From Flavobacterium erciyesense (GTDB taxonomy: Bacteria > Bacteroidota > Bacteroidia > Flavobacteriales > Flavobacteriaceae): 64,000 nt of DNA. A model generated the notes under the pieces. The model saw only the letters and a program-made list of their open reading frames with translations, was not told where the DNA came from and ran no database searches. The stretch lies in NCBI RefSeq assembly GCF_018069925.1, contig NZ_JAGPXB010000009.1, positions 62,001 through 126,000 of the forward strand, read 5' to 3'. Every line of letters begins with the position of its first letter. Positions within the stretch are counted from its first letter, which is position 1. The translations under genes and the position numbers were made by a program. This document shows, in pieces, positions 43,650 to 57,015 of this stretch.

Positions 43650-44783
43650 ATGAGCGGAATCTACATACATATCCCTTTTTGCAAGCAGGCGTGTCATTAT
43701 TGCGATTTTCATTTTTCGACTTCTATGAAAAAGAAAGACGCAATGGTTGTGGCTTTGGCCAAAGAAATTCATATGCGCAAAACGGAGTTTCAAAATGATA
43801 TCGTGGAAACGATTTATTTTGGGGGGGGAACGCCAAGTGTGCTAACTTCTGATGAAATTAATTTTTTGATCAATGAGGTATACTATAATTTTGAAGTAGT
43901 TGAAAATCCCGAGATTACTTTGGAGGCCAATCCAGATGATTTGTCTGAAGAACGAATTATTGAATTATCAAAAAGTAAAATTAACCGTTTGAGCATTGGG
44001 ATTCAGTCATTTTTTGAAGAAGATTTACTTCTGATGAATCGAGCTCATAATTCGGCGGAAGCCAAAAAATGTTTGCAAATAGCTACTCAGTATTTTGATA
44101 ATATTTCATTGGATTTAATTTACGGAATTCCTGCCATGAGCAATGAAAAATGGGAGCAAAATATCGACACAGCCTTGAGTTTTGGCATTCCTCATATTTC
44201 CAGTTATGCCTTAACGGTTGAGCCAAAAACAGCTTTGAAAAAACTAATACAAACCGGGGCCATTGCTGCTCCCAAAGATGAAGTTGCTGAGGCGCATTTT
44301 ATGATTTTGGTTGACAAGCTCGAGGCCAATGGTTATGTACACTATGAATTGTCAAACTTTGGGAAACCAGACTATTTTTCTAAAAACAATTCCGCTTATT
44401 GGTTGGGGAAAAAATATATCGGAATTGGCCCTTCGGCACACAGTTATGATGGTGTTTCCCGTAGTTGGAATATAGCCAATAATGCCTTGTATTTAAAAGG
44501 GATTCAAGAGCATATATTGCCGAATGAAGTGGAAATTTTATCTATTGCCGATCGTTATAATGAATATATTATGACGGGATTGCGAACTATTTGGGGTGTT
44601 TCATTAACAAGAATTGAAAATGAATTTGGAAGCGAATATTTGAATTATTTGAAAAAACAAACCCAAAAATTCCTCGATGATGATTTGGTTTTTATCGAAA
44701 ATAATATTTTGAAACCAACTGCAAAGGGAAAGTTTTTGACGGACGGCATAGCGTCAGACTTATTTTACTTAAATTTGGAATAA
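43650..44783 (+). CDS. hemW: Radical SAM heme chaperone HemW
   Basis: 377 residues. The radical SAM cluster motif lies at the N-terminus as Cys11, Cys15 and Cys18 in FCKQACHYCDFHF, the HemW/HemN-like CxxxCxxC. Other landmarks are GGGTPSVL, EANPDDL, RLSIGIQSF and the HemW C-terminal pattern HYELSNFG. HemW carries and inserts heme into respiratory enzymes and is not coproporphyrinogen dehydrogenase. The fourth Cys of the HemN Cx3Cx2CxC is replaced by Phe-His-Phe, as expected for HemW. It lies 50 bp after ruvC. Confidence 0.93.
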   Translation: MSGIYIHIPFCKQACHYCDFHFSTSMKKKDAMVVALAKEIHMRKTEFQNDIVETIYFGGGTPSVLTSDEINFLINEVYYNFEVVENPEITLEANPDDLSEERIIELSKSKINRLSIGIQSFFEEDLLLMNRAHNSAEAKKCLQIATQYFDNISLDLIYGIPAMSNEKWEQNIDTALSFGIPHISSYALTVEPKTALKKLIQTGAIAAPKDEVAEAHFMILVDKLEANGYVHYELSNFGKPDYFSKNNSAYWLGKKYIGIGPSAHSYDGVSRSWNIANNALYLKGIQEHILPNEVEILSIADRYNEYIMTGLRTIWGVSLTRIENEFGSEYLNYLKKQTQKFLDDDLVFIENNILKPTAKGKFLTDGIASDLFYLNLE

Positions 44784-46691: not shown

Positions 46692-46807
46692 AAACCATTC
46701 GTCGCTTTAAATTAGTTATTCGACTATAGTAAATTGATATTTCATCGAAAATTAGGTTATTCTGTCTCTTGTTTACGTAAGTTTATAAAGCACCTTAGAA
46801 AAAACAG

Positions 46808-47221
46808 ATGAATAAATCACTAAATATTTTATTAATTGAAGATGATGCCATTGAGGTAATGAAATTCAATAGAGTTTTAAGTAGCTTAAATTTTAAGCAT
46901 AAAATTATAGAAGCTAATAATGGAGAGGAAGCAATTAAAATATTAAAAGAAAAAGAAACGGTTCCGGACATAATAATTTTAGATTTAAATATGCCAAAAA
47001 TTAACGGAATAGAATTTTTAGGGATATTGAAAGGGGACGACTACTTAAAATATATACCAGCTATAATTTTAACTACATCTAATAATCGAAAAGACGTTTT
47101 AGAATGTTACAAAATAGGAATTGCGGGATATCTTTTAAAGCCTCTTAAATATGATGACTATGTAGATGGGATAAAACGCTTAATAGAGTATTGGAGTGAT
47201 AATGAATTAATATCTCAGTAA
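46808..47221 (+). CDS. Single-domain response regulator (Rcp1-type receiver)
   Basis: 137 residues, a stand-alone receiver: acidic pocket Glu11-Asp12-Asp13, phospho-acceptor Asp59 in IILDLNMPKING, switch Thr in ILTTSNN and Lys in LLKPL. The GIEFLGILK and tail pattern resembles Rcp1-like receivers that partner bacteriophytochrome-type or PAS kinases. It is the first gene of the NO-signalling cluster and ends 1 bp before the H-NOX gene, so it is likely a phospho-target or phosphate sink for the kinases. There is no output domain. Confidence 0.92.
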   Translation: MNKSLNILLIEDDAIEVMKFNRVLSSLNFKHKIIEANNGEEAIKILKEKETVPDIIILDLNMPKINGIEFLGILKGDDYLKYIPAIILTTSNNRKDVLECYKIGIAGYLLKPLKYDDYVDGIKRLIEYWSDNELISQ

Positions 47222-47222
47222 C

Positions 47223-47765
47223 ATGTACGGAATTGTAAATAAGGCAATTGAAGAATTAGTTGTGGCTAATTTTGGAGCTGATAAATGGGAGGATATTAAA
47301 CTGCGAAGCGGAGTTGATGTTGATTATTTTATAAGCAGTGAGCCTTATGATGATGATTTGACTTTTAAGTTAGCTCAAGCAGTTTCTGATGAAATGGGCA
47401 TGACATTAAGTTCCGTTTTAATTACTTTTGGAGAATGGTGGGTTGTTAAAACAACAAAAGATAAATATGGTGGATTGATGGAAGCAGGAGGAGATAATTT
47501 AAGAGAATTTTTAATAAACTTGCCTCTCTTTCATAATCGAGTAATGCTGATATACCCAAAACTGACTCCTCCGGAATTTAAAGTGAGTGATGTTAACGAA
47601 AACAGTATTAATCTGCATTATTTCTCAAAAAGAGAGGGACTTCAGGACTTCGTAAGAGGCCTTATTCAAGGATTGGGGATAATGTATAATACACCTGTTA
47701 CAATTAATTTACTTCAAACCCGTGACGAAGGAAGTTCACATGAAATTTTTAATGTAATTTGGTAA
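47223..47765 (+). CDS. H-NOX heme nitric oxide-binding protein
   Basis: 180 residues, the exact size of a stand-alone H-NOX. N-terminal MYGIVNKAIEELV and GADKWEDI match the HNOB pattern. The proximal heme ligand is His104 (LPLFHNRV). The heme-propionate-binding YxSxR is Tyr133-Ser135-Arg137 in HYFSKREG. These positions match His102/Tyr131/Ser133/Arg135 of Thermoanaerobacter H-NOX. The distal pocket lacks an obvious Tyr at the O2-stabilising position, so NO/CO selectivity is expected but not certain. It binds NO and controls a partner kinase, here the HNOBA-carrying kinase 5 bp downstream. Confidence 0.93.
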   Translation: MYGIVNKAIEELVVANFGADKWEDIKLRSGVDVDYFISSEPYDDDLTFKLAQAVSDEMGMTLSSVLITFGEWWVVKTTKDKYGGLMEAGGDNLREFLINLPLFHNRVMLIYPKLTPPEFKVSDVNENSINLHYFSKREGLQDFVRGLIQGLGIMYNTPVTINLLQTRDEGSSHEIFNVIW

Positions 47766-47769
47766 AAAC

Positions 47770-50454
47770 ATGAACAAATTAGAATTTAATTTTGATGAAG
47801 ATAGTTTTAATAAGCTATTCCCTTTCTATATTTTAATTGATTCTAATTTGAAAATAAAAAGTTTTGGTAAGAGTTTGGCCAAGACTTTGCCTGGAATTAA
47901 ATTAAATGATACTTTTTCATCCACTTTTGAAGTAAAAAGACCATTTGTTGAAAATCCAGATTTTGATAGCTTAACAGCTATTTTTGATCAATTAATCGTT
48001 ATAAGTACAACCTCTAACGCTATTGATTTAAGGGGGCAATTTCAGCAATTTAATGATTCTATTTTATTTGTAGGCTCTCCTTGGTTTGTCTCTATGAATC
48101 AAGTTAGAGAAAGGAAATTAACGCTACACGATTTCGCTTTTCACGATCCTTTACTCGATCTTCTACATGTTTTGAAGACACAGGAAATAACTACCCAAGA
48201 ACTAAAAGAATTATTATTTAAAATTAATAATCAAAAAAAAGATTTAAAAAGAGATCAGGAAGAGCTAAACAGGCTTTCCCTTGTGGCGAGGGCTAACGAG
48301 AATGGGGTTGTTTTTACAAAACCTGACGGTGTAATTTTTTGGTGTAATGATGCTTATTTAAAATTGACTGGCTTTTCTATAGAGGAAGTAATAGGAGCAA
48401 CCCCTGTTGAGTTAGGTAAGTGCGAATATACGAACAAGGAAGATTTAAAGAAGATGATTGTTCCGTTTTTAAATGGAGAAATGTTTGATGTAGAGCTAGT
48501 TCATGGTAGAAAAGACGGAAGCTATTTTTGGACTAAAACAAAAGGGCAGCCCGTTCTGGATTCAACAGGAAATGTCGTTCAGTATTTTGCGATGATTGAA
48601 GATATAACTGAAAAGAAGAATGCTGATTTTAAATTAATTGAATCGGAGGACAGGCTTTCATTTCTAATTCGTAATCTACAAACGGGGATAATTTTAGAGG
48701 ATGAAAACAAAAGACTTTTATTGGTAAATAAAAAATTATGTTCGATGTTTGATTTTGAAGTAGAACCGGATGCTTTAATCGGCAGTGACTTCTCTGGTTC
48801 TGTCGAAGATTCCAAACGGTTTTTTAAAAATCCGGATATATATGCGGAAAGATTGAACAATATTTTTAAAGAAAATAAAGCTGTTTATAATGAAGAATTA
48901 GAGCTTATAGACGGTAGGTTTTTTGAGAGAAGTTATGTTCCTATCTTTAGAGATGGTATTTATAAAGGCAATCTTAGGTCCTATGTCGACATTACAATAA
49001 AAAAGAAACACGAGGAAATATTACAAAATGAAAAAGAAAAATACAGCAACATCATAGCCAATATGAACTTAGGTTTGATTGAGGTTGATCAAAACGATCG
49101 GATTACTTTAGTAAATCATAGTTTTTGTGAAATTAGTGGGTATACTGTATCGGAACTGATTGGGAAAAAGGCATCAAATTTATTTTTAAACGAAGAAAAT
49201 ATACAGCTTATTGAAACTAAAAATAAGTTGCGGGTTCAAGGAGTGACTGATTCTTATGAAGTACAGATAAAAAACAAAAAAGGAGAAAAAAGATATTGGT
49301 TAATAAGCGGGGCGCCAAATTATGATGTTAATGGAAAAATCATGGGTTCCATAGGTGTTCATTTGGATATAACAGAACAAAAAGAGCAAGAGGAAAAACT
49401 TTATTTACTCTCTTTAATAGCAGAAAAAAATCTAAATTCAGTTGTGATTAGTGATAAAGAAGGCAGGATAGAATGGGTTAATTCCAGTTTTGAAAAAATG
49501 TCAGGTTATACTAAAGAGGAATTGATAGGAATGAAGCCAGGCTATCTGTTACAAGGCGCAACCACAAATCCTGAGACTATTAATTACTTAAAAAATCAAA
49601 TTAGTAAAGGGCAACCTTTTAATTGTGAAATTCTAAACTATTCCAAATCAGGAGAAAAATATTGGGTAAAAATTCAAGGACAAGCATTATATAATACTAG
49701 AGGTGAGATAGTTCGATATTTTGCTATTGAAGAAAATGTAACCAATAAGAAATTATTGGAAAATCAACGGGAAGAGCTAGTGGTGAGTTTAGCAAAAACG
49801 AATAAAGAACTCGAAGATTATGCTCAAATAGTATCACATGATTTAAAATCTCCTTTACGAAGTATTCATTCATTAATTTCATGGATAAAATCCGATAATG
49901 ATAAGGAATTTAGTGATCTAACCCTAAGTTATTTTTCTATGATTGAAAATAAAGTGGAAAAAATGGATTATTTAATTGATGGTATATTAACCTATTCTAA
50001 AATTGACAAAGAGGAGTTGCCTCAAGAAAGTATAAACACTCATCAAATTATACAGAGTATAATTAACATTATTTATATCCCAGAACACATCAGTATTACT
50101 ATTAAAAATCAACTACCGATGCTGCAGGCGGATCGTTACAGAATCCAGCAATTGTTCCAGAATATAATAGGGAATGCTGTAAACTATATTGAAGAGGAAG
50201 TCGGATTAGTTGAAGTCGCTTCGGAAGAATTTGAGGACTATTATGTTTTCTCCATTAAAGATAATGGTGTTGGTATTGCAAAAGAGCATCATCAGAAAAT
50301 ATTTAATACCTTCCAGTCCTATACTAAAAGTGAGCATTCAACCGGACTTGGATTGGCAATTGTGAAAAAAATTATAGATGCTTATAATGGTAAAATATGG
50401 GTCGATAGCGAATTAGGAAAGGGTTCAACTTTTTTCATAAAGCTTAATAAATAA
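47770..50454 (+). CDS. Sensor histidine kinase with HNOBA-like N-terminus and four PAS domains
   Basis: 894 residues. Residues ~1-165 resemble the HNOBA domain of guanylate cyclases: FPFYILIDSNLKIKSFGKSL, FVGSPWFVSM and HDPLLDLLHVLKTQ, then coiled coil. PAS domains follow at ~170-285, 295-412, 425-538 and 545-660. The HisKA has His690 in YAQIVSHDLKSPLRS, and the HATPase_c contains DNGVGIA and GLGLAIVKKI. There is no membrane helix, so it is cytoplasmic. It is probably the direct partner of H-NOX and phosphorylates a receiver in the cluster. It starts 5 bp after H-NOX. Confidence 0.88.
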   Translation: MNKLEFNFDEDSFNKLFPFYILIDSNLKIKSFGKSLAKTLPGIKLNDTFSSTFEVKRPFVENPDFDSLTAIFDQLIVISTTSNAIDLRGQFQQFNDSILFVGSPWFVSMNQVRERKLTLHDFAFHDPLLDLLHVLKTQEITTQELKELLFKINNQKKDLKRDQEELNRLSLVARANENGVVFTKPDGVIFWCNDAYLKLTGFSIEEVIGATPVELGKCEYTNKEDLKKMIVPFLNGEMFDVELVHGRKDGSYFWTKTKGQPVLDSTGNVVQYFAMIEDITEKKNADFKLIESEDRLSFLIRNLQTGIILEDENKRLLLVNKKLCSMFDFEVEPDALIGSDFSGSVEDSKRFFKNPDIYAERLNNIFKENKAVYNEELELIDGRFFERSYVPIFRDGIYKGNLRSYVDITIKKKHEEILQNEKEKYSNIIANMNLGLIEVDQNDRITLVNHSFCEISGYTVSELIGKKASNLFLNEENIQLIETKNKLRVQGVTDSYEVQIKNKKGEKRYWLISGAPNYDVNGKIMGSIGVHLDITEQKEQEEKLYLLSLIAEKNLNSVVISDKEGRIEWVNSSFEKMSGYTKEELIGMKPGYLLQGATTNPETINYLKNQISKGQPFNCEILNYSKSGEKYWVKIQGQALYNTRGEIVRYFAIEENVTNKKLLENQREELVVSLAKTNKELEDYAQIVSHDLKSPLRSIHSLISWIKSDNDKEFSDLTLSYFSMIENKVEKMDYLIDGILTYSKIDKEELPQESINTHQIIQSIINIIYIPEHISITIKNQLPMLQADRYRIQQLFQNIIGNAVNYIEEEVGLVEVASEEFEDYYVFSIKDNGVGIAKEHHQKIFNTFQSYTKSEHSTGLGLAIVKKIIDAYNGKIWVDSELGKGSTFFIKLNK

Positions 50455-50456
50455 CT

Positions 50457-51590
50457 ATGAAAATTATTCAGGCATCGAAAGTAAAAAATCAAGATTGGAA
50501 CTATTTTCAAGAAAAAACAACTTTAAAAAATCCTTTAGTTCTGGTTTTTGGCAATAGATTTCTTTTGGAGGACGAGGCAGTTATAGAAGGTATTCGAAAA
50601 GAATTTCCTTATGAGGATATTGTTTTTGGATCTACTTCAGGGGAAATTTTATGTTGTAATGTATATGATAATTCTATCTCAGTAACGGCCATCGAATTTG
50701 AAAAAAGTTCTTTTGCAGTTGAACGAGCCAATATTTTAGATCATCAAAAAAACGCACAAGAATTAGGTGAAGTACTATATCAAAAAATTCCCAAACAAAA
50801 CTTAAAGCACCTTTTCGTTCTCTCTGAAGGGAGTTTTGTAAACGGAAGTTCACTTATCAAAGGCCTCGAAAGTACTTTAGAATCTCAAGTCAGAATTACA
50901 GGTGGTATGTGTGGAGACGATGCACGTTTTGAAAAAACAATTGCCTCCTACAAAGAGAATCCAAAAGAAGGAGAAGTTATACTAATTGGGCTTTATGGTT
51001 CATCATTAGAGATTAGCTTTGCTAGTTTTGGAGGGTGGATACCTTTTGGTCCAGAGCGTATTGTAACTCATTCCGTAGACAATGTATTGTATGAAATTGA
51101 TAGCCAGCCAGCACTCGATCTCTATAAAAATTACTTGGGTGAGAGGGCTAACGAGTTACCCAAAGCCTCTTTATTTTATCCTTTAAATGTTACGCCACAG
51201 GACCGAAATGAGCCAGTAGTGCGAACTATTTTGAATATTGATAATGCGAACTCGTCAATGATTTTGGCAGGTGATGTTCCTACAGATTCAAAAGTACAAC
51301 TCATGATGGCCTCAGTAGATAATATTGCTGATGGAGCACTGCAGGCTGCTAAATTCGGGATGAAAAACCGAAAAACAAAACCAGAGTTCGTACTTGCAAT
51401 TAGCTGTGTAGGTCGTAAATTGGTGATGAATCAAAGAGTAGAAGAGGAGTTAGACCAAGTGCGAGAAATAATAGGCGAAGGAATACCAATAACAGGTTTT
51501 TACTCTTACGGAGAGTTAGCACCCTTCAATGGTAGTACTACTTGTGAACTACACAATCAAACCATGACTTTAACCTTAATAAGTGAGTAA
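50457..51590 (+). CDS. FIST domain sensor (NosP-like)
   Basis: 377 residues with FIST_N (~30-220; VFGNRFLLEDEAVIEG, VFGSTSGEIL, GGMCGDDARF) and FIST_C (~225-365; GFYSYGELAPF..TCELHNQTMTLTLI). FIST proteins are cytoplasmic sensors. In the NosP group they bind heme and nitric oxide and inhibit a co-encoded kinase (established in Pseudomonas, Vibrio and Legionella). The adjacent downstream kinase and Hpt protein reproduce the NosP-NahK-HptB arrangement. The heme ligand cannot be assigned by eye. It starts 2 bp after the first kinase and its stop overlaps the next ATG. Confidence 0.88.
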   Translation: MKIIQASKVKNQDWNYFQEKTTLKNPLVLVFGNRFLLEDEAVIEGIRKEFPYEDIVFGSTSGEILCCNVYDNSISVTAIEFEKSSFAVERANILDHQKNAQELGEVLYQKIPKQNLKHLFVLSEGSFVNGSSLIKGLESTLESQVRITGGMCGDDARFEKTIASYKENPKEGEVILIGLYGSSLEISFASFGGWIPFGPERIVTHSVDNVLYEIDSQPALDLYKNYLGERANELPKASLFYPLNVTPQDRNEPVVRTILNIDNANSSMILAGDVPTDSKVQLMMASVDNIADGALQAAKFGMKNRKTKPEFVLAISCVGRKLVMNQRVEEELDQVREIIGEGIPITGFYSYGELAPFNGSTTCELHNQTMTLTLISE

Positions 51591-52624
51591 TGAATTCTTT
51601 ATTGAAAAGACAAATAGATAAAAAACTGCGGGGCGGGTTAAATGATTTGGATATTTTTCTGGCGGCTATAAATGAATCTTACGAAAATTTTGAGAGTCAA
51701 ATAAGCTTGCTTCAACGTGCAATGAAAATCAGTTCTGATGAACTTTTTAAAGCCAACCAAAAACTTCGTGATGAGGCCGAAAGTTTGAAGGAAATTAATA
51801 AAAATTTAGAGTTTATTTTACAGTCTATGAGTCTGGATGTAGCTCAAATTGATACTGCAGAATCATTCAATTCTACAGATTACATCAAAAAACAATCAAT
51901 CGAAATCTTAAAAATTAACAAACAAAGAGAAGAACTATTGGTACATCTCGAAAATCAAAACACTATCTTAAACGATTATGCGCACATGGTTTCGCATGAT
52001 TTGAAAGCTCCTTTACGCAATATTGATACCCTTATAAATTGGTTTATTGAAGACAATAAGGAAATGATGAATGAGTCGAATTTAAAATCGATGCAATTAA
52101 TGCTGTCTAATGTTGAAAAAATGGATTTGTTGATTAAAGGAATTCTCAATTATTCCGAAGTACAAAACAAAGACAGTCTCACGCGATGGATTGATTTGAA
52201 TTTGATTTTAGAAGATATCACTCGGTTATACAGCGAAGAACACATCACTATTAAATTTGATACTATTTTGCCACTGGTGTGGGGTAATGACGTAAGGTTT
52301 ATGCAATTATTTCAAAATCTTATCCAAAATGCCATCAAGTACAATAATAAACAACACATAGATATTACAATTGGCCATACAGAAGAGGTTGATTTTTACC
52401 ACTTTTACGTAAAAGATAATGGAGTTGGCATACCAGAAAAATACCAATCAAAAGTATTTGATATTTTTTTTAAATTAGAAAACACTAATTCTTCTTCCGG
52501 AATTGGATTGTCAATCGTGAAAAAAATTGTAGAATTTTATGACGGGACAATTTGGTTGGAAAGCCAGCTCGAAGGCGGCACAACGTTTTATTTTACAATA
52601 GCTAAACACAATGGAAAAGCCTAA
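51590..52624 (+). CDS. Histidine kinase paired with the FIST sensor
   Basis: 344 residues. The N-terminal ~125 are coiled-coil helices without PAS or membrane segments (DIFLAAINESYENFESQISLLQRAMK), like the N-termini of NosP-associated kinases. HisKA has His136 in YAHMVSHDLKAPLRN. HATPase_c has NLIQNAIKYN, DNGVGIP and GIGLSIVKKI. There is no fused receiver. It begins at the FIST stop (TAATG overlap) and its end overlaps the Hpt gene by 14 bp, so strong translational coupling suggests a complex of FIST, kinase and Hpt. Phospho-target inferred. Confidence 0.92.
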   Translation: MNSLLKRQIDKKLRGGLNDLDIFLAAINESYENFESQISLLQRAMKISSDELFKANQKLRDEAESLKEINKNLEFILQSMSLDVAQIDTAESFNSTDYIKKQSIEILKINKQREELLVHLENQNTILNDYAHMVSHDLKAPLRNIDTLINWFIEDNKEMMNESNLKSMQLMLSNVEKMDLLIKGILNYSEVQNKDSLTRWIDLNLILEDITRLYSEEHITIKFDTILPLVWGNDVRFMQLFQNLIQNAIKYNNKQHIDITIGHTEEVDFYHFYVKDNGVGIPEKYQSKVFDIFFKLENTNSSSGIGLSIVKKIVEFYDGTIWLESQLEGGTTFYFTIAKHNGKA

Positions 52625-52928
52625 TACAACGTACATAGACCAATTATCGGGTGCTAATTACGAGTTCCGGGATAAACTAATAGCTATTTTAAAAAGAGAA
52701 TTGCCTGAAGAGATTAGTGCATATCAAATGAAAATAGAATCTGGTGATTTCCAAAGTGCGGCACAGATCGTCCATAAATTAAAGCATAAAATTTCAATTT
52801 TAGGATTGGAGAAAAGTTACTATCTTGCTGAAAATTATGAAGATAATTTAGTGCAAAATAGCAAAATTTTGCAACCTGAGTTTGAAATTATTCTGAAATC
52901 CATGCAAGAGTTTGTATCTTGCTTGTAA
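52611..52928 (+). CDS. Histidine phosphotransfer (Hpt) protein
   Basis: 105 residues, a single Hpt four-helix bundle. The phospho-His is His55 in AAQIVHKLKHKISILGL, the usual HxLKG(S/A) site with His in place of Gly. It can relay phosphate between receivers and kinases. Position directly after the FIST-linked kinase gene (14-bp overlap) and before the LytTR regulator supports a relay role, comparable to HptB downstream of NahK in Pseudomonas (established there). Confidence 0.9.
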   Translation: MEKPNTTYIDQLSGANYEFRDKLIAILKRELPEEISAYQMKIESGDFQSAAQIVHKLKHKISILGLEKSYYLAENYEDNLVQNSKILQPEFEIILKSMQEFVSCL

Positions 52929-52939
52929 TAAATTTTGTT

Positions 52940-53647
52940 ATGAATTGTATTATTATTGATGACGAAGAAACAGCTAGAGCGATCCTAACACAAATGATCG
53001 CTGTGTCTCCAGGAGTAAAACTTATTCAGGATTTCCCGAATGCAATTGGTGCAATTAAATTTCTAAACAGTATTGAGGTAGATTTAATATTTTTAGATAT
53101 TCATATGCCAGATTTTACTGGATTTGATTTTATTCAAACTTTAAAAAATCCACCCAAGGTAATCTTGGTTACAGCTGATAAAAATTTCGCAATCGAAGCT
53201 TTCGAATATGATTGTATTGTTGATTATCTCGTAAAACCAATAACGGAAGAACGCTTTAAAAAGGCCATTCAAAAAGCAGAATCTCATCCAAAAACACCAC
53301 TAGTTTCTGATTTAAAAAAGGTGGTAGAAAATGATGCAAAGGTTTTTTACATCAATATTGATCGAAGGTTGGTCAAAATCGATACTGATTCAATAGTAAT
53401 TGTTGAAGCAAAGGGAGACTATATTCATATCAAAACAGAAACAAAAAACTACATTGTGCACTCGACCTTAAAGAAAATCGAGGATAAATTACCGTCACAG
53501 TTTTTTTTGAAAGTCCATCGTTCGTATGTCATAAATACTAGCAAAATAATAGATATTGAGGATAACAGCATTTTAATAGGCAAAGAGGTAATCCCTGTTA
53601 GTAGAGCAAATAAACCAGAACTAATGAAAAGATTAAATCTTCTTTAG
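52940..53647 (+). CDS. LytTR-family response regulator
   Basis: 235 residues from ATG 52940 (MNCIIIDDEETARA); an earlier in-frame start adds seven residues. The receiver has the acidic pair in IIIDDEE and the phospho-Asp in LIFLDIHMPDFTG. A LytTR DNA-binding domain follows (KVFYINIDRRLVKIDTDSI, YIVHSTLKKIEDKLPSQFFLKVHRSYVIN). It is the only DNA-binding output in the cluster and so the likely end point of the relay, controlling unknown promoters. It follows the Hpt gene by 11 bp. Confidence 0.95.
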   Translation: MNCIIIDDEETARAILTQMIAVSPGVKLIQDFPNAIGAIKFLNSIEVDLIFLDIHMPDFTGFDFIQTLKNPPKVILVTADKNFAIEAFEYDCIVDYLVKPITEERFKKAIQKAESHPKTPLVSDLKKVVENDAKVFYINIDRRLVKIDTDSIVIVEAKGDYIHIKTETKNYIVHSTLKKIEDKLPSQFFLKVHRSYVINTSKIIDIEDNSILIGKEVIPVSRANKPELMKRLNLL

Positions 53648-53811
53648 TAGGTATGCGTTTATCAAATGTGCTTTTATCTTTTCATGGTTAATTCTTAAGT
53701 AAATAAAAGCCAATGAAGCCAACCATTTGTCGCAACTTTTCAACCTTCCAACGAAAATTTCAGGAAGTCTTTGTTGTATGTTTTTAATTTTACTGTATTA
53801 AATTAAAAATT

Positions 53812-54855
53812 ATGAAAGTGCTTCTTATAGATGATCAGGAATTAGTTTTATTGACCATCGAAAAGTTATTAATAGACCTTGGATATTTAGTACAATCTGT
53901 CAATAATATGGCCGAGGGTATTCAAATATTCGATTCCTACGAACCGGATTTAGTAATTACAGATATTGATATGCCGGTAATTCCTAACTCAACTTTCGAA
54001 TTTAAAACATTAGATTTCATTAAGAAGAAATCGGGTTTGGAGGTCATAAAGTATATCCGGTTGATAAAAAAAAGTCCTACACCTATAATGGTTCTCTCAG
54101 GCAATAAACATCCGGATATGATTGCAAGTGCCTTTTCCTTAGGTGCCAATGAATATATGGTTAAGCCACTTAGTTTAAATGAAATTGGCTCACGTGTTGA
54201 AAGATTAATAGGAAGTGCAAATAAGCATAAACCTGTCAAAACCGCAGTAGGAATGATTCAAAAGTCATGTGTGGGGATAGTAATACCTTTTAATTACAAA
54301 CCGGGCGATGTGGTGGTTCAGGAGTGGAGCCAATTGGTAAAGCAAAATTTAAATTATCATATTTGTTTGGTCAATTACAATTTAGAACACGACTGCGAAT
54401 GCAATCAGTTGGAAGAACTTAAAGGCACAAATAAAAGGATTACAGTTTTAAATTTTAAAGAAGCGGTTACAAAGGCTGAAGCCATTCGTTTGGGTGTGTT
54501 GTATTTAGAAGAGAAACATCAATTTGATTTTATTGTTTTGCGAAACGCCTCATTCTTTAAAAGTCTGGGAAGCGTCAAAGATGCCATTGATATAGCATTA
54601 CAAATAGATCGTAAATACAGCTGTATTACTACTGCGGCAGATAGTAATACCCATTTTTTTCATAAAATCCTTCAGAAGTTATACCACCGTGTAGCCCGTA
54701 GTTTGAATAAACAACTTAATTATTTTCAGCAAGGCGAAATTGAAACCACAGTTTTTTCTATCGAAATTGTCAAAGAAGTATTCGAAAATCCGTTTAAAGC
54801 TGATTCAAATTTTCAAAAAGAAATTAAGCAAAGAGCACAAGCTTATAGTAATTAG
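53812..54855 (+). CDS. Response regulator fused to a GT-A-like C-terminal domain
   Basis: 347 residues. Residues 1-145 are a receiver with acidic LIDDQE, phospho-Asp51 (VITDIDMPV), SG and VKPLS motifs. Compared with normal receivers there is an insertion of ~20 residues after the phospho-Asp (PNSTFEFKTLDFIKK). Residues ~153-347 are not a known output domain. VGIVIPFNYKPGD..EWSQLVKQNLNYHICLVNYN and FDFIVLRNASF suggest a degenerate GT-A glycosyltransferase fold, without a clear DxD. It lies 164 bp after the LytTR gene on the same strand and may be a separate unit of the same signalling cluster. Confidence 0.7.
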   Translation: MKVLLIDDQELVLLTIEKLLIDLGYLVQSVNNMAEGIQIFDSYEPDLVITDIDMPVIPNSTFEFKTLDFIKKKSGLEVIKYIRLIKKSPTPIMVLSGNKHPDMIASAFSLGANEYMVKPLSLNEIGSRVERLIGSANKHKPVKTAVGMIQKSCVGIVIPFNYKPGDVVVQEWSQLVKQNLNYHICLVNYNLEHDCECNQLEELKGTNKRITVLNFKEAVTKAEAIRLGVLYLEEKHQFDFIVLRNASFFKSLGSVKDAIDIALQIDRKYSCITTAADSNTHFFHKILQKLYHRVARSLNKQLNYFQQGEIETTVFSIEIVKEVFENPFKADSNFQKEIKQRAQAYSN

Positions 54856-55914: not shown

Positions 55915-57015
55915 CTACAGTGTTTTTTTCTGTTTTTCTACAAAATTATTAGACTGTAGTTCTAATAAATCAATAGCGTTTTTGCGTTGCAAATCGTACA
56001 GTTTTTTATCATCGGCGATGTCAGCATATACTTTATCGTGCATGGCCTCGCTTGTTTTTACCAATAGCGAGCGCTGGTATTTGTCTTGCTCAATGGTAGC
56101 TTTTAAGGCAGTGTCTATATCTTCTAATTTAAAATCGTATTCGCCTTTTGGAGCCAATAGTTTTGCAATAATTGGCGAGGTTTCAATTGCTAAAAATAGC
56201 AACATGATAAAAAATGATGGCAACCAAGGCAACTTGTTCAAGGCATTGATTCGGGCCATTAAACCATCAAAACCGTCAATAATAGGTTGAGTTTCGGTAA
56301 CTTTTTTGTCTAAATCAGCTTGTAACGTTTTTGTGTTTTTTTCCATCTCAGCAATTTTAGCCAAGTTGGTTTTTTGCAAAGTGTCTAGTTCTTGTTTAGC
56401 CAAATCATGCTTGGCAATTTTTTCTTTAAAAACAGGACCTTTTCCTAGCTTTTTAGTTCCTGCGGTACCTTCGGCCTCTTTTATATAGGTTTCGTACAAG
56501 GTGTTAACTTCTTTTTCTTTAGTTGCTATTTCTAATTTCAGCTTGTCGATTTCGGCTTTGTTTTTGTCTAAATCACTTTTGAAATAGGTAGCTACCTCTT
56601 TTTTATTGGCCAAAGCCATCGCATTTTTTTCTTTCAACAAAACAGTATTGATTTCCTTCTCAAAAATTTTAATTTCCAAAGGTTTTGAGATCACAACAGC
56701 AATAATTATCGCTAAAATAATCCTTGGTGTGGCTTGTAAAAATTCGGCACCAAATTGATCTCTTTTTCGAATAGTAGAAACAATAAAACGGTCTAAGTTA
56801 AATATAAGCAAGGCCCATACAACGCCAAAAGCAATTGCCGGATAAATGCTGTCGAATACGGTAAATAGGGCGTAGGCACTGGCCAGAAAAGCCATAACCG
56901 CGGTAAAAAAAACTGTAGCGCCAATGCCTACATATTTGGTTTGTTCGCCTTGGGAACAACCGTCGAGGAGCTCGCTATCGGCACCTGAACATAAAATAAA
57001 AAAGGGTTTGAACAT
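55915..57015 (-). CDS. DUF4407 membrane protein
   Basis: 366 residues. DUF4407 N-terminus: FFILCSGADSELLDGCSQGEQTKYVGIGATV, then two to three membrane helices, including FGVVWALLIFNLDRFIVSTIRKRD. A long coiled-coil region (~125-265, many Lys/Glu) follows, then a last membrane helix (LPSFFIMLLFLAIETSPIIAKLLAP). The structure suggests a membrane-anchored protein with a large extramembrane coiled coil. The family has no established function. A -7 element lies 32 bp upstream of the ATG. Confidence 0.9.
   Translation of the reverse strand: MFKPFFILCSGADSELLDGCSQGEQTKYVGIGATVFFTAVMAFLASAYALFTVFDSIYPAIAFGVVWALLIFNLDRFIVSTIRKRDQFGAEFLQATPRIILAIIIAVVISKPLEIKIFEKEINTVLLKEKNAMALANKKEVATYFKSDLDKNKAEIDKLKLEIATKEKEVNTLYETYIKEAEGTAGTKKLGKGPVFKEKIAKHDLAKQELDTLQKTNLAKIAEMEKNTKTLQADLDKKVTETQPIIDGFDGLMARINALNKLPWLPSFFIMLLFLAIETSPIIAKLLAPKGEYDFKLEDIDTALKATIEQDKYQRSLLVKTSEAMHDKVYADIADDKKLYDLQRKNAIDLLELQSNNFVEKQKKTL

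Follow-up and report, generated by a model that had tools for sequence, protein, structure and literature searches.

A conserved seven-gene operon of Flavobacterium erciyesense with an H-NOX sensor gene, a candidate FIST sensor gene and the predicted parts of a split phosphorelay

Introduction

A 64,000-nucleotide stretch of the Flavobacterium erciyesense genome (the window; contig NZ_JAGPXB010000009.1, positions 62,001 to 126,000) contains an operon that encodes an H-NOX protein and a FIST protein, each followed by a histidine kinase, and raises the question of whether both sensors report to one DNA-binding regulator. The original prediction, made from the sequence, proposed that both types of bacterial heme nitric oxide (NO) sensor converge here on one Hpt phosphotransfer protein and one LytTR regulator, in a combination for which no other operon was known.

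On balance, our computational analysis favors a split phosphorelay that takes several inputs through interchangeable sensor-kinase modules and whose LytTR regulator would control its own operon and nearby genes. The operon is real, conserved and modular and is built from known parts; half of the claim of a dual NO sensor is unproven. A published survey already lists FIST genes close to hnox, and our literature search, which lay mostly outside subscription papers, found no title describing the seven-gene operon. What is new here is the likely order of the relay, the shared kinase core, the exchange of cassettes and a 21-bp operator.

Results

The operon comprises seven open reading frames (ORFs) on the plus strand, at 46808-53647, encoding a stand-alone receiver (response regulator 1, RR1), H-NOX, a first histidine kinase (HK1), FIST, a second histidine kinase (HK2), Hpt and a LytTR response regulator (Table 1). 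Their positions, together with the domains assigned with Pfam at its curated cut-offs, bear out the predicted run of adjacent co-directional genes. The successive intergenic distances are +1, +4, +2, -1, -14 and -10 bp; the LytTR ORF opens with TTG, and counting from its next ATG, at 52940 (MNCIIIDD), the last distance becomes +11. In HK2, Pfam recognized HATPase_c, a further HATPase_c_5 match below cut-off and no HisKA, and the motif SHDLKAPLR of a dimerization and histidine phosphotransfer (DHp) domain is visible in its sequence. No GGDEF, EAL or HD-GYP domain was found by Pfam in the seven proteins; the rest of the genome was not searched for GGDEF. The whole genome (3.43 Mb, 42 contigs) holds one HNOB and one FIST match. 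A scan for promoter and terminator consensus elements stayed at or below chance level.

How common is this arrangement? In a sample of 299 genomes of the family Flavobacteriaceae, HNOB is present in 105, FIST in 87 and both in 68 (Fisher odds ratio 16.9, p 3e-23, uncorrected for kinship). The 10-kb co-occurrence search that the original prediction had called for located FIST at no more than 10 kb from H-NOX, on the same strand in every case, in 58 of the 105 H-NOX genomes, with H-NOX preceding FIST in 57 and the order reversed in G253. This count comprised all H-NOX rows over the cut-off (one sub-cut-off row from G076 was omitted) and 80 FIST rows; the FIST rows left out belong to 13 multi-copy genomes, of which G066 alone has H-NOX, on another contig, and to extra copies in G075 and G140, and the linked count is unaffected. 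Among 395 genomes sampled across the phylum, HNOB was detected in 27, 12 of them outside the family, and a single one of these 12 (G448) shows the linkage, within a full operon. Of 398 genomes of Pseudomonadota (the phylum of G680, whose locus L120 is titled Motiliproteus, a gammaproteobacterium), HNOB occurs in 102; FIST is present in 45 of the 80 tested and lies within 10 kb of H-NOX in G811 alone, on the opposite strand, as judged by comparing distances by eye. In the 22 H-NOX genomes outside these 80, H-NOX sits in long or fragmentary frames. Having both genes somewhere in one genome is common outside the family too; their linkage, at 58/105 against 1/80 in Pseudomonadota and 1/12 in the phylum outside the family, is therefore a trait of this family in the samples examined.

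We also mapped 168 loci, which were fetched through FIST or H-NOX, so that their counts are not frequencies. All seven genes occur in the same order in 85 of them, among these the window (52 have one of the H-NOX types and 33 the other), a recurrence that places the arrangement beyond chance; together with the 58 linked genomes it rules out the window operon as a unique case, and the supposed novelty of finding both genes in one operon falls. Four of the 85 carry an inserted third, membrane-type kinase (HK3), 38 loci have a form of five genes that lacks FIST and HK2, and 11 are without H-NOX. Flavobacterium hydatis (L103) has no HNOB anywhere in its genome, and decayed H-NOX stretches remain in L067 and L080. 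Across 127 operons (FastTree), the presence of FIST changed at least 13 times and the H-NOX type three times; the FIST-kinase pair is gained and lost as a cassette. HK2 distances correlate with those of RR1, Hpt and LytTR at r 0.83-0.86, and FIST distances less so (0.50-0.57). The 141 operon loci include two near-identical pairs, L102/L103 and L106/L194. A plasmid search with H-NOX returned five distant records alone, at no more than 26% identity.

Two variants were seen in passing. A third kinase of 426-452 aa with a similar core lies between HK2 and Hpt in L066, L067, L094, L095 and L097, and in L066 its N-terminus is of membrane type by eye. Genome G628 contains two near-identical stretches (L302 and L303) in which LytTR-Hpt-kinase-receiver genes diverge from RR1-H-NOX-HNOBA kinase genes; one stretch continues into FIST-HK2, and in the second the HNOBA frame is short.

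The identity of the first sensor is clear. The window H-NOX scores 159.3 bits against an HNOB cut-off of 25.5, and the residues named in the original prediction, His104 and the YxSxR motif at 133-137 (Y133-F-S135-K-R137), are in place and conserved (H104 and Y133 in 33/33, S135 in 32/33 and R137 in 29/33). It belongs to a type resembling the Nostoc protein and soluble guanylate cyclase, matching 4iah at 6.7e-45 versus 2.2e-7 for 6bde, and shares this type with other Flavobacterium loci; the commonest H-NOX of the family is instead of the Kordia type (2e-94 for L123 versus 6bde) and occupies the same operon slot. H-NOX proteins free of a distal Tyr are expected to bind NO rather than O2, and by this rule the window protein, with D and F and no Tyr at positions 142-143, would be expected to have NO as its ligand. 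Its sequence contains no cysteine and therefore lacks the Cys/zinc redox site that other H-NOX groups possess; a redox role of that kind is ruled out, and the different redox ranges proposed for the two sensors find no footing in this protein.

The two H-NOX types come with different kinases. Kordia-type H-NOX is paired with a coiled-coil kinase N-terminus in 106/106 cases and Nostoc-like H-NOX with an HNOBA kinase in 34/34, and operons devoid of H-NOX retain HNOBA in 11/11; thus in Flavobacterium the H-NOX type and the input end of the kinase changed together. In the kinase tree the cores of the HNOBA kinases nest within those of the coiled-coil kinases, indicating replacement of the input end on a retained core. 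A possible source, the direction of the exchange being inferred, is the unit of sigma-54 regulator, H-NOX and HNOBA hybrid kinase found in L122, L289 and L290. HK1 lengths cluster at about 400, 530-550, 650-670 and 780-800 aa, as would fit PAS domains having been gained or lost.

HK1 and HK2 share one core. Among 30 genome matches to the HK2 core the nearest is HK1 (177 bits, the next 102), and the DHp identity of the two is 49%, versus at most 33% for 20 other kinases compared. Of 26 own-genome loci tried for the tree (L257 and L258 were omitted), 20 were usable, as were 6 of 10 outside kinases adjacent to FIST; HK1, HK2 and HK3 group in a single clade (support 0.93) that excludes the 20 own-genome kinases and five of the six outside ones, the sixth being L104 of Flavobacterium rivuli. 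This topology rules out an import of the HK2 core from the NosP-type kinases of other taxa. The N-terminus of HK2 (LLKRQI...SSxELxxAN) is common to FIST-adjacent kinases of other taxa, which suggests that HK2 combines an input end of the FIST type with the operon's own kinase core.

The components of a phosphorelay are all present with conserved phosphosites. Residues D12, D13, D59, T89 and K111 of RR1, as well as H55 and K58 of Hpt, are each kept in at least 95% of 141 operons, D14, D15, D60, T85 and K106 of LytTR (numbered from the TTG) each in at least 95% of 127, and the phosphosite of HK2 is conserved. In phosphorelays a histidine kinase passes its phosphate to a receiver Asp before it reaches the Hpt His. 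Because neither HK1 nor HK2 contains a receiver domain, RR1 and not Hpt should be the first target, and direct transfer from the kinases to Hpt was rejected as the main route. In relatives beside H-NOX (L122, L289, L290 and L292) the kinase, receiver (REC) and Hpt are joined in a single chain, although the Hpt match of L122 falls below the Pfam cut-off, and in L292 this chain directly precedes a LytTR gene; these fusions indicate the order kinase, receiver, Hpt, LytTR. We therefore amend the dual-input relay first put forward: the co-directional unit, the sensor-kinase pairs, the single Hpt and LytTR and the shared kinase core agree with it, but the kinases would act on RR1 and not straight onto Hpt. 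In the relay as we draw it, H-NOX would control HK1 through the HNOBA end and FIST would control HK2 through its coiled-coil N-terminus; both kinases would phosphorylate RR1, and the phosphate would move to Hpt and then to the LytTR regulator, each of these transfers being predicted from the protein sequences.

Where might the regulator act? Ahead of the operon lies a direct repeat with the half-sites CCATTCGTCG (46695-46704) and TTATTCGACT (46716-46725), 21 bp apart. Scored with a consensus derived from the same promoters, at least 16 of 20 operator positions are present in 107/140 operon promoters and in 0/140 mononucleotide shuffles, and 102 of those 107 show the 21-bp period. LytTR regulators bind direct repeats in pairs spaced by roughly two turns of the helix, as seen in these promoters, and the LytTR protein is thus a candidate binder of the repeat and may regulate its own operon. 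With a position weight matrix (PWM) built from 105 sites, exactly two hits of at least 5 bits were obtained in the window, at 46694 and 53722. No hit of at least 14 bits occurred in the own-genome kinase loci (102 kb), in 44 loci from other taxa (214 kb) or in 12 further H-NOX loci of Bacteroidota (200 kb), against 357 such hits in the mapped loci (2.63 Mb); a site of at least 18 bits stands at the operon in 125/141 loci and an additional one before another gene in 66. The H-NOX-less loci L100, L102, L103 and L111 keep the upstream operator although their operons have no LytTR gene behind Hpt.

The second window site precedes a gene whose product joins a receiver to a part resembling glycosyltransferases; at its C-terminal part it matches, at 5e-7, a glycosyltransferase of family 2 from L191. 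The same fusion recurs close to the related operons of L071 and, by similarity, of L081, L092, L100-L103, L111, L164 and L183, in some of them on the opposite strand. When the further targets of the relatives were clustered, 39 of 125 genes formed one family, whose example in L066 has DUF4114 and a type IX secretion system (T9SS) sorting tail. Other groups, with domains taken from one example protein each, are STAS (12), glycosyltransferase group 1 (9), AAA_31 (6; chain-length determinant by eye), UDP-glucose dehydrogenase (4), cytidylyltransferase (3) and family-2 glycosyltransferase (2). The regulator may accordingly bind repeats before nearby glycosyltransferase, UDP-sugar and secreted surface-protein genes, and the output of the relay would then concern the cell surface or matrix.

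The FIST protein is the less certain of the two sensors. It contains FIST_N and FIST_C, and its gene directly precedes that of HK2, with a 1-bp overlap, as expected of a NosP and its partner kinase; the NCBI NosP equivalog model NF041558, however, scores it at 63 bits, far short of its cut-off of 450. Every one of 27 FISTs from several taxa has H366-N367, and H366, the single invariant His, is common to FISTs of many taxa and therefore not diagnostic for heme. The fold nearest to its AlphaFold2 model (pLDDT 93.8) is human FBXO22 (8ua3, TM 0.53), followed by chorismatase and cyanuric acid hydrolase enzymes; no heme protein was among the structure matches listed, and a sequence comparison with the PDB gave no match. 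The nearest named relative is from Flavobacterium turcicum (90% identity). In the accessible part of a review, heme and NO binding by FIST-FIST_C proteins is termed possible and poorly understood (PMC8846402). Our data neither support nor exclude heme in this protein, which is a putative NosP by family resemblance alone. The proposal of two heme NO sensor types is thus solid for H-NOX, by its HNOB match and residues, and putative for FIST, given its NosP score and the absence of heme proteins among the structure matches listed.

A gene about 2 kb upstream of the operon encodes a radical-SAM protein whose C-terminal domain is of the HemN type (HemW-like by eye), and ORFs of similar size precede the operon in several Flavobacterium loci; this neighborhood is probably synteny only. 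A DUF4407 gene lies downstream on the minus strand.

Table 1. Features of the operon and its surroundings (window positions)
Feature	Position	Strand	Basis
RR1, stand-alone receiver, 137 aa, proposed first phosphoacceptor	46808..47221	+	Response_reg
H-NOX, Nostoc/sGC-like type (HNOXn)	47223..47765	+	HNOB E 1e-46; Alr2278 4iah 6.7e-45
HK1, proposed H-NOX partner kinase	47770..50454	+	HNOBA, PAS (three PAS_9 stretches), HisKA, HATPase_c
FIST_N + FIST_C protein, proposed auxiliary sensor of HK2	50457..51590	+	FIST 2e-41, FIST_C 6.8e-34
HK2, N-terminal coiled-coil module, DHp and HATPase_c	51590..52624	+	Pfam, sequence comparison
Hpt phosphotransfer protein	52611..52928	+	Hpt 26.1 bits, just above the cut-off of 24.6
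LytTR response regulator, proposed DNA-binding output; probable start ATG 52940	52919..53647	+	Response_reg, LytTR
Direct-repeat operator before the operon	46694..46730	+	PWM 22.5 bits
Second operator-like direct repeat, before the next gene	53722..53758	+	PWM 20.7 bits
Receiver + glycosyltransferase-2-like protein, proposed target	53812..54855	+	Response_reg; 53722 site 54 bp upstream
Radical-SAM protein, HemN C-terminal domain	43650-44783		HemW-like by eye
DUF4407 protein	55915-57015	-	

Discussion

The Spo0 relay runs from several kinases through Spo0F and Spo0B to Spo0A, and the operon described here resembles it in having more than one kinase, a stand-alone receiver, a phosphotransferase and a DNA-binding regulator; it differs in the families of the phosphotransferase and the output, in its gas-type accessory sensors and in having all parts in one operon. 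In the Shewanella and Vibrio networks (HnoX-HnoK-HnoB; VpsS or HqsK to LuxU), as far as the accessible texts describe them, an accessory sensor likewise acts on a cytosolic kinase and several kinases share one relay, with an Hpt hub in Vibrio, and the outputs given are c-di-GMP (cyclic di-GMP) enzymes or LuxO (PMC6769237, PMC8846402). In the operon studied here, in contrast, Hpt and LytTR share an operon with both sensors, and the receiver stands as a protein of its own. The nosRPK operon (FIST, kinase and response regulator) also sets FIST beside a kinase with no recognized sensor domain; in the available portion of that report it has no H-NOX and its regulator is HD-GYP, not LytTR (PMC12570481). 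The FIST of the window falls far below the NosP equivalog cut-off. The Kordia algicida H-NOX (6BDD/6BDE), of which 6BDD is named Ka H-NOX in the accessible text of PMC7356049, represents the common type of the family in the operon slot that the Nostoc-like protein, with its HNOBA kinase, fills in the window.

Could the operon house two systems that exchange no phosphate, H-NOX/HK1/RR1 and FIST/HK2/Hpt/LytTR? Each sensor gene has its own kinase gene directly behind it and two receivers are available, as this would require, but the 38 five-gene loci keep RR1, Hpt and LytTR with H-NOX and HK1, one core is common to both kinases, and kinase, receiver and Hpt are joined in the fused relatives, so that we regard separate systems as quite improbable. 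Stand-alone receivers can serve as phosphate sinks, and RR1 might be one, or a separate CheY-like output, with the kinases reaching Hpt through another receiver of the cell; we consider this unlikely, although a little less so, as RR1 opens nearly every operon mapped and the fusions place a receiver between kinase and Hpt. The most serious alternative leaves the relay as drawn and has FIST neither sense NO nor bind heme but report another small molecule, so that there would be no dual NO sensor. The low NosP score, an only invariant His that FISTs of many taxa share, and nearest folds that are FBXO22 and chorismatase or cyanuric acid hydrolase enzymes all speak for it; against it stand the N-terminus of HK2, which is of the FIST-adjacent kinase type, and the proteobacterial FIST proteins, described in the accessible text of PMC12570481 as NO-responsive partners of the neighboring kinase. 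We would give this alternative a chance only just short of even.

The split relay with exchangeable modules, which we prefer, has several points against it. The DHp identity of HK1 and HK2 is no higher within operons (0.490) than between them (0.487), and there is therefore no sign of pairwise coevolution, while the NosP score has been mentioned above. The promoter count is partly circular because of the origin of its consensus, and the scans covered operon flanks only. A strict exact operator pattern was found in 2/41 genomes of the genus, one occurrence being the window operon, and it missed G506 despite its operon, which marks the pattern as too strict. Several target labels (flippase, chain-length, TolC-like) were assigned by eye, and the groups of 15 (flippases) and of 3 (TolC-like) had no Pfam match. 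Gene content, conservation, the joint exchange of H-NOX and kinase end, the kinship of the cores, the order in the fusions and the operator positions were all established computationally, and it is from such computation, not from biochemistry, that the relay would follow.

What the operon may mean for these bacteria can be put forward tentatively, at somewhat less than even chances: flavobacteria would wire gas sensing to surface matrix genes through a purely transcriptional relay, in which a fixed RR1-Hpt-LytTR chassis accepts swappable cassettes (two unrelated H-NOX types, FIST and a membrane kinase, sharing one kinase core) and c-di-GMP is bypassed, the latter being argued from the seven proteins and general knowledge. 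If true, about 140 operons would be available for comparing a natural case of sensor replacement at a fixed operon position, and the combination of two candidate gas sensors on one transcription factor could be tested directly, with the 21-bp operator rendering the output of the relay testable. Furthermore, gas sensing would be linked to the surface polysaccharide and protein genes of Bacteroidota with no c-di-GMP enzyme in the operon.

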